Under the pieces are notes generated by a model that was given only the letters and a program-made list of their open reading frames with translations, had not been told where the DNA came from and made no database searches. This document shows positions 28,157 to 29,617 of a DNA stretch of 64,000 nt, one piece after another. Source of the DNA: Mesorhizobium onobrychidis (GTDB lineage: Bacteria; Pseudomonadota; Alphaproteobacteria; Rhizobiales; Rhizobiaceae); assembly GCF_024707545.1 (NCBI RefSeq), contig NZ_CP062229.1:4321501-4385500 (forward strand), read 5' to 3'. Positions within the stretch are counted from its first letter, which is position 1; the number at the start of each line of letters is the position of its first letter. Both the position numbers and the translations under genes were made by a program.

Positions 28157-28771
28157 TCATGCCGCGTCCGTGCCGGCCATCACCTTCCACGCCGCCATGG
28201 CCCCGGCCACCGTCGCCAGAAGGGCGGTGCGCGATGCGCCGTCGCGCGCCTGGATCGACATGCCGTGCTGGACGGTCGCATAGAAGGTCGCAGCCGTGCG
28301 GCAGTCGAAATTTTCCGGCAATTCGCCTTCCGCCACGCCGCGTTTCAGCCGTCTCAGCAAGGCTGCGCGGTTTTCGGCGCGACGGCGGCGCAGGTCGTCG
28401 CAGATGGCGCCGCGGCTTGAGTCCTGATGCAGCGCGCCGAGTGCGATCAGACAGCCTTGCGGACGATCGGTTTGCGAATAGGCCTTGGCCGTCTGGCGCA
28501 GGAAGCGCTCGACCGCCTGGCGCGCCGTCGGCGACTTTTCCAGTGCGGACCAGATATCGGTGCCTTCGACCTGCGTGTAGAGCTCGACCGCTTCGAGGAA
28601 GAGCGCTTCCTTGCTGCCGAACGCGGCGTAGAGGCTGGGCGAGTTGATGCCCATCGCCGCGGTCAGCTCGCTCATCGATGCGCCCTCGTAGCCCTTGGCC
28701 CAAAACACCTCCATTGCGCGCCGCAAGGCAGCGGTTCGATCGAAGGTGCGGGGACGGCCTCGTTCGGGCAT
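28157..28771 (-). CDS. TetR/AcrR-family transcriptional regulator
   Basis: The 204-residue regulator has an N-terminal TetR helix-turn-helix (RTFDRTAALRRAMEVFWAKG, then SMSELTAAMGINSPSLYAAF) and a C-terminal domain of the type seen in YcdC/AcrR-like proteins. It is divergent from an SDR gene with 99 bases between starts; a long perfect inverted repeat in that spacer probably contains its operators. It likely represses the SDR gene and itself until a small ligand binds. Confidence 0.9.
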   Translation of the reverse strand: MPERGRPRTFDRTAALRRAMEVFWAKGYEGASMSELTAAMGINSPSLYAAFGSKEALFLEAVELYTQVEGTDIWSALEKSPTARQAVERFLRQTAKAYSQTDRPQGCLIALGALHQDSSRGAICDDLRRRRAENRAALLRRLKRGVAEGELPENFDCRTAATFYATVQHGMSIQARDGASRTALLATVAGAMAAWKVMAGTDAA

Positions 28772-28787: not shown

Positions 28788-28850
28788 TGATTGATACATA
28801 AATCTGTTGACGCACCCGGGCAAGGCTGGCAGACATTTATGTATCAATCA
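28788..28850. promoter_or_regulatory. Paired TetR operators (16-bp perfect inverted repeat)
   Basis: TGATTGATACATAAAT (28788-28803) and ATTTATGTATCAATCA (28835-28850) are exact reverse complements separated by 31 bases. Each copy sits near one of the two divergent genes: one next to the tetR start, one just before the SDR ribosome-binding site. This fits a regulator binding twice, facing each promoter. The AT-rich arms stand out from the GC-rich surroundings. Confidence 0.65.
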
Positions 28851-28870: not shown

Positions 28871-29617
28871 ATGTCATCGCAAGGCTTGAACGGCAAGGCT
28901 GCGCTCGTCACCGGCGGCAGCCGCGGCATCGGCGCAGCGATTGCGCGAAGGCTCGCGGCCGACGGCGCCAGCGTCGCGCTCACTTACGTGAATGGCGAGG
29001 AGCAGGCCCGCGCTGTCGTCGGGGAAATCGAGGCAGCCGGCGGTCGCGCCATTGCCATCAAAGCCGACAATCGCGATGCTGCCGCGATCCAGGAGGCGGT
29101 CAGCGAGGCCGTGAAGACCTTCGGGCGACTGGACATCCTCGTCAACAGCGCCGGTATCTGGCGCGCCGCGCCGATCGATGAATTGCCGCTCGCCGACTTC
29201 GATGAAACCATGGAGGTCAATGTCAGAGCCCCGTTCGTGGCCTCGAAGGCGGCAGCCGTGCATATGGGCGAGGGTGGCAGGATCATCTCGATCGGCAGCA
29301 ATCTGGCGGAGCGTGTCACCGACACCAGCCTCAGCGCCTACTCGGCCAGCAAGGCGGCATTGGTCGGCTTGACCAAGGCATTGGCGCGCGACCTCGGTTC
29401 GCGCGGCATCACCGCCAACGTCGTTCATCCTGGCTCGACCGATACCGATATGAACCCGGCCAGTGGCCCGCACGCCGAGCACCAGCGACAGAAGATGGCG
29501 ACGCCTGTCACAAAGCGCCCTTCGGGACCTGCCAGCCAGGCGACCATGCCGGCGATCTCTTCAGCCTTGCCGAAGCGGGGCGCCGCACTGACTATCGACG
29601 GCGGCGCCAACGCCTGA
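28871..29617 (+). CDS. SDR-family oxidoreductase carrying an internal 80-bp inversion near its 3' end
   Basis: The first 210 residues are a normal short-chain dehydrogenase: NAD(P) motif VTGGSRGIGAAIA, VNSAGIWRAAPI, catalytic serine region RIISIGSN, and Y157/K161 in AYSASKAALVG, then HPGSTDTDMNPASGPHAEHQ. The expected next segment is missing; residues after KMA read ATPVTKRPSGPASQAT and so on, until normal sequence returns at AALTIDGGANA. The opposite strand of 29501-29580 encodes the missing RFGKAEEIAGMVAWLAG and GPEGRFVTG. The segment is thus inverted in frame. The product is full length but about 27 residues near the substrate lid and dimer helix are replaced, so activity is doubtful. Start has AGGAG upstream. 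Confidence 0.85.
   Translation: MSSQGLNGKAALVTGGSRGIGAAIARRLAADGASVALTYVNGEEQARAVVGEIEAAGGRAIAIKADNRDAAAIQEAVSEAVKTFGRLDILVNSAGIWRAAPIDELPLADFDETMEVNVRAPFVASKAAAVHMGEGGRIISIGSNLAERVTDTSLSAYSASKAALVGLTKALARDLGSRGITANVVHPGSTDTDMNPASGPHAEHQRQKMATPVTKRPSGPASQATMPAISSALPKRGAALTIDGGANA
29501..29580 (-). other. 80-bp inverted segment inside the SDR gene
   Basis: Read on the minus strand this segment encodes PRFGKAEEIAGMVAWLAG and GPEGRFVTG, the conserved C-terminal helix of SDRs. Placed back in reverse it joins KMA upstream and AALTIDGG downstream in frame, with at most one extra residue. The ends abut GGCG (29497-29500) and CGCC (29581-29584), a 4-bp inverted repeat. Confidence 0.8.

Follow-up and report, generated by a model that had tools for sequence, protein, structure and literature searches.

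The question raised by this locus of Mesorhizobium onobrychidis is why a classical SDR oxidoreductase gene encodes a protein whose residues 213-236 are unlike those of its family, and what kind of event could have put that stretch there. The original prediction, made from the letters of the window (the whole stretch of 64,000 nucleotides that was analysed), was that a short in-frame microinversion had replaced the normal coding sequence, and it offered an inactivating mutation, a reversible switch and an assembly error as possible causes. Comparison with related genomes confirmed that the SDR gene carries an in-frame inversion and that the stretch is not a product of chance (Table 1).

Table 1. 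Positions in the window of the inversion-bearing SDR gene, its inverted segment and the adjoining regulatory features
Feature	Position	Strand	Remarks
Divergent TetR-family regulator gene	28157..28771	-	PF00440, 51.1 bits; PF16925, 34.2 bits
Perfect 16-bp inverted repeat between TetR and SDR genes, left half	28788..28803	+	Same letters in G181
Perfect 16-bp inverted repeat between TetR and SDR genes, right half	28835..28850	+	Same letters in G181
Classical SDR oxidoreductase gene, 248 aa, bearing the inversion	28871..29617	+	PF00106, residues 9-198; PF13561, to residue 211
Inverted unit with its two 4-bp arms, 81 bp	29502..29582	-	Widest of the tested intervals whose flipping restores the relatives' sequence
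Inverted core, 73 bp	29506..29578	-	Reverse complement identical to G181
Left arm, CGCC	29502..29505	+	End of imperfect 8-bp arm GCGACGCC, 29498-29505
Right arm, GGCG	29579..29582	+	Start of imperfect 8-bp arm GGCGCCGC, 29579-29586

Ends, Arms and Purity of the Inversion

DNA searches were run against 101 genomes and against 146 genomes of the genus, the window's own included, and many relatives on the minus strand were among the matches listed. The closest relative among these matches, G181, was used as the reference for the ends of the inversion and for identity. The inverted stretch aligns with G181 in minus orientation, at 98% identity along 89 bp (E 5.1e-37). Five intervals, 29502-29582 being the widest and 29506-29578 the narrowest, were turned back one at a time, and each gave agreement with G181 at all of the 200 bases around the site and at 743 of the 747 bases of the whole SDR gene (99.5%); turning back 29501-29583, one base wider, leaves 198 of 200. 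The interval first given, 29501-29580, was right in location and off by up to 2 bases at its limits, the largest extent being 29502-29582 and the core 29506-29578. The claim that flipping restores a near-canonical protein holds with these corrected ends, since every tested interval between them yields MATPRFGKAEEIAGMVAWLAGPEGRFVTGAALT, the same as in relatives, whereas the interval first given yields MAPRFG...VTGVAALT, with small errors at both joints.

The 4-bp inverted repeat that had been noticed is real and lies, as CGCC and GGCG, at the corrected ends. It is nested in an imperfect 8-bp inverted repeat, GCGACGCC/GGCGCCGC, in which 7 of 8 positions match, and the mismatch of the longer arms is unchanged, so the exchange was confined to the 4-bp arms. 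The reverse complement of the core is identical to G181 at 73 of 73 bases, with no difference inside the inverted stretch. On the assembly as given, the window contains a pure inversion with defined ends, and it has the features of a microinversion in the sense of PMC8755829, namely a reverse complement in place, collinear flanks and inverted repeats exactly at the edges.

Arm pairs of this kind are common in the SDR gene: at spacers of 40-120, 4-bp windows form 368 inverted pairs and 8-bp windows, when one mismatch is allowed, form 61. Therefore only the exact position of the arms at the edges counts. A hairpin was considered as the cause and rejected, because neither state folds with unusual stability on either strand (z 0.15, 0.27, 0.48 and 0.64); the minimum-energy fold of the G181 minus strand pairs both arms, with an unexceptional energy. 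With commonplace arms and an ordinary fold, the analysis offers no reason for an inversion at this particular site. The frame does stay open in the inverted state, as had been pointed out, and this is an ordinary outcome, since the frame also survived in 5133 of 8606 inversions of 73-85 bp tried in the SDR gene and in 264 of the 368 bounded by 4-bp inverted repeats. The open frame is thus not meaningful as a sign of design.

Distribution among Relatives and Age

The locus was read in the 50 other genomes with loci returned by the two DNA searches (58 loci, 8 genomes being read twice), of which 49 belong to the same genus and one, G093, to the same order. The genus, Mesorhizobium, is consistent with the source names carried by close protein matches. 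In 46 of the 50, the core is oriented opposite to the window; G004, G015, G058 and G093 gave no nucleotide match to the core at the cut-off used and have a canonical protein tail. The window orientation was found in 0 of the 50. Orthologues sharing the present reading frame, which the original prediction had named as evidence against itself, were absent from all of these genomes, which strongly supports the microinversion.

A degenerate pattern covering one junction of the flipped form detected no such form at the SDR gene outside the window's genome. It matched in 5 of the 146 genus genomes, own included, and this SDR gene lay at the pattern only in the own genome; in genome_contigs, a collection that may omit the window's own genome, it had 29 matches. 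L070 and L095 were considered as flipped forms and rejected, the SDRs concerned being distant ones elsewhere on the stretch and not at the junction pattern. When relatives of the flipped C-terminus (residues 206-248) were sought among cluster representatives, 31 candidates were returned, none at E 10 or better. Because the flipped state occurs only in the window's genome among those read, it is taken as derived, the assembly again being granted.

Outside the inversion, the SDR gene differs from that of G181 in four codons, three of them synonymous and the fourth giving V130L, a position at which the window and G052 have the same residue. In the adjacent genes and intergenic stretches, identity to G181 is 98-99%. 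With only four codons differing outside the inversion, the event is recent, and the missing further decay therefore says nothing about function.

Predicted Effect on the SDR Protein

Classical SDRs are recognized by a TGxxxGxG motif and by N-S-Y-K residues. The window protein possesses TGGSRGIG at residues 14-21, and its N117, S143, Y157 and K161 occupy invariant alignment columns. PF00106 matches it with 184.7 bits over the residues given in Table 1. The PF13561 match (164.3 bits) stops at residue 211, compared with residue 247 in the G181 protein (200.5 bits), and by this measure the C-terminal part of the SDR domain is incomplete. The best NCBIfam model, NF009383, covers residues 7-247 in both proteins, with 188.3 bits in the window and 233.5 bits in G181. 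The two proteins are identical at 225 of 248 residues, and apart from V130L all differences fall within residues 213-236, where 22 of 24 are changed. Among the residues replaced are W226, L227, F234 and V235, near-invariant positions in the family alignment, and the changed stretch presumably takes the place of the C-terminal helix and of the segment leading into the last strand of the SDR fold. The top-scoring solved relative, 3v2g, has a canonical tail.

The window form is likely to have lost its enzyme activity wholly or in large part, a prediction based on the change of 22 of 24 residues at 213-236, with the upstream cofactor and catalytic regions untouched. Since NF009383 still aligns to residue 247, with a lower score, a partly working enzyme is possible. 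To judge from the gene's state in relatives, it seems dispensable: the SDR frame is broken or truncated in 5 of the 50 genomes (G037, G120, G160, G152 and G126), although draft errors may be involved, most of all in G152. With the frame apparently disrupted in several congeners, the inversion is probably neutral or nearly so. In G017 (C33:195064-195386) and G050 (C9:24276-24724), the match pattern suggests that the TetR-SDR pair has been largely deleted, with parts of both genes left.

The original prediction also placed the gene under a TetR regulator with strong operators. The TetR-family gene and a perfect 16-bp inverted repeat between the two genes are present; the repeat is probably an operator, to judge from its sequence and position, and the regulator may act there as a repressor.

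Other Small Inversions in the Same Genome

A screen for small inversions covered 270,675 aligned columns between the window's genome (G000) and G181, 206,362 between G181 and G145, and 211,091 plus a further 112,791 between G000 and G145; its patch method failed to detect the 322-bp inversion that other comparisons revealed. Between G000 and G181, seven in-place minus-strand matches were found, and three of these are inversions, of 81, 234 and 322 bp. Two more, of 72 and 37 bp, were rejected as inversions, being palindromic with good plus-strand matches in place, and one of 49 bp (82%) lies in a repeat-rich stretch where G145 suggests that the change occurred on the G181 side. Only the 81- and 322-bp events were found between G000 and G145 in the 211,091 columns, and the further 112,791 columns contained no small inversion. 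For G181 and G145, the matches consisted of a palindromic one of 79 bp and two that overlap each other at the 49-bp site. The seventh match between G000 and G181, outside the window at G000:C1:4392478-4392609, is a 132-bp minus-strand match (99%) that stands at the end of a collinear block and could be part of a larger rearrangement.

The 234- and 322-bp inversions both lie at locus L127, about 110 kb from the event in the window. The former (G000:C1:4238485-4238718) is opposite in G181 (97%) and G152 (96%), and also in G052, G185 and G120 by weaker matches of 74-78%. Beside it, G181 has about 360 bp extra that are absent from G152, and part of the 234-bp stretch recurs at G000:C1:5922660-5922932, which indicates that a repeated sequence is involved. 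The latter (G000:C1:4243856-4244177) is opposite in G181 and G145; the order across G000:C1:4243242-4244177 is A-C-(-B)-D, against A-B-C-D in both relatives, and it appears to break a gene pair predicted to encode a solute-binding protein and a transporter. Judged by the orientations in these relatives, the two inversions are derived in the window's genome, like the 81-bp one.

Three events on the side of the window's genome, compared with one low-identity candidate on the G181 side over 270,675 columns, are suggestive only. That the lineage has an unusually active process flipping short DNA at inverted microhomology is quite doubtful, and the idea is further weakened because the 234-bp event adjoins repeated sequence. 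If it were true, bacterial genes may be recoded by recombinase-free inversion more often than annotation shows.

Origin of the Inversion

The best explanation of the altered SDR gene is a recent, pure microinversion generated by templated copying at 4-bp microhomology and probably inactivating the SDR, for which the probability is put at about 0.78. Of the readings first offered, the recent inactivating mutation is thus the best supported, its inactivating effect being a prediction, and the reversible switch gained no positive support. Under this explanation, the 73-bp core between CGCC and GGCG was exchanged, on the lineage of the window's genome, for a precise reverse complement without loss or gain of bases; a single act of templated synthesis at the 4-bp microhomology is the most likely means. 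The polymerase could have switched to the opposite strand and back at a fork, or a break could have undergone microhomology-mediated repair. Templated copying at microhomology is the most likely class of mechanism, with no firm choice between fork switching and break repair.

According to the available text of PMC8755829, 45 of 59 human-chimpanzee microinversions are pure, and their flanking repeats are 3-75 nt long and often imperfect. Template switching is considered there to be hard to apply to repeats of 3-4 nt or to imperfect repeats, for the reason that it is known to turn imperfect repeats perfect, and microhomology-mediated break-induced replication is proposed instead. As far as that text goes, its argument counts against the fork-switching route and for the break-repair route, and the kept arm mismatch fits what it says of imperfect repeats. 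In yeast genes, the available text of PMC8604942 describes spacer inversions only with arms over 9 bp.

It is unlikely that the strain has a canonical gene and that the flip was introduced in assembly or sequencing. Such an artefact would agree with the restriction of the flip to the window's genome among the genomes read or searched and with the presence, about 110 kb off in the same assembly, of two further small inversions. It is opposed by an assembly in 2 contigs, which suggests long reads, and by ends that fall exactly on inverted microhomology without base loss, as in documented microinversions; moreover, the genome holds one full-length copy of the SDR gene, the 13 other matches all being short.

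A reversible, intragenic inverton-like switch that turns an active SDR into an inactive or altered one and back is very improbable. Described invertons have repeats of 10-40 nt and an invertase, often encoded nearby (PMC11892184, in its available part), whereas the arms here measure 4 bp, or 8 bp if one mismatch is allowed, and repeats of 10-40 nt are absent. A search for two recombinase families, PF00239 and PF00589, found no match in the 64-kb window; the genome has 10 and 41 matches, respectively, the nearest lying about 73 kb and about 255 kb away. The adjoining TetR-family gene and the purity and recency of the inversion would suit a switch, as would a frame open in both orientations, although that is the outcome of 5133 of 8606 trial flips. 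The absence of the flipped orientation from the 50 other genomes read, the junction pattern at the SDR gene in the own genome only and a flipped C-terminus without a relative at E 10 or better among cluster representatives all argue against switching. Adaptive recoding, in which selection favours something novel that the inverted C-terminus brings to the SDR, is hardly credible, since the intact ORF and the lack of subsequent change in the inverted stretch, which would fit such recoding, are set against a new stretch without relatives in the C-terminus search, the replacement of near-invariant W226 and L227, and an event too recent for the lack of decay to carry meaning.

Comparison with Known Systems

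Documented eukaryotic microinversions resemble the microinversion in the SDR gene in that a sequence is replaced by its reverse complement, mostly purely, between short perfect or imperfect inverted repeats. They differ in being 17-33 nt long, the exonic one lying outside coding sequence, whereas the present event measures 73-81 bp and lies inside bacterial coding sequence. For bacteria, a study in coli by Schofield, Agbunag and Miller (1992) is said, by its title, to deal with inversion at short inverted repeats, and Chanin et al. (2024) are cited on intragenic invertons. A search of the literature recognized no paper on bacterial intragenic inversion at 4-bp arms, which is not a claim of absence.

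The inversions of inverted-repeat spacers by template switching in S. cerevisiae likewise flip coding sequence between inverted repeats and change amino acids; in the available text of PMC8604942, their arms exceed 9 bp, and Table 2 there lists spacers of 2-5 bp, compared with 4-bp arms and a 73-bp core in the window. Invertons and intragenic invertons, as described in the available part of PMC11892184, share with the window a flipped segment inside a bacterial gene but have 10-40-nt repeats and an invertase; neither such repeats at the site nor a PF00239 or PF00589 match in the window was found, and a single orientation is known in this genome. The event looks like a real, recent microinversion of an established type, of considerable length given arms of 4 bp, and it lies inside a bacterial coding sequence. 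It provides a clean natural example of bacterial intragenic inversion at 4-bp arms, with the frame open and a relative that is 99.5% identical over the gene. The ORF itself bears no mark of damage, its length being kept and its SDR family scores still good, and such events can be found through minus-strand matches within collinear alignments.
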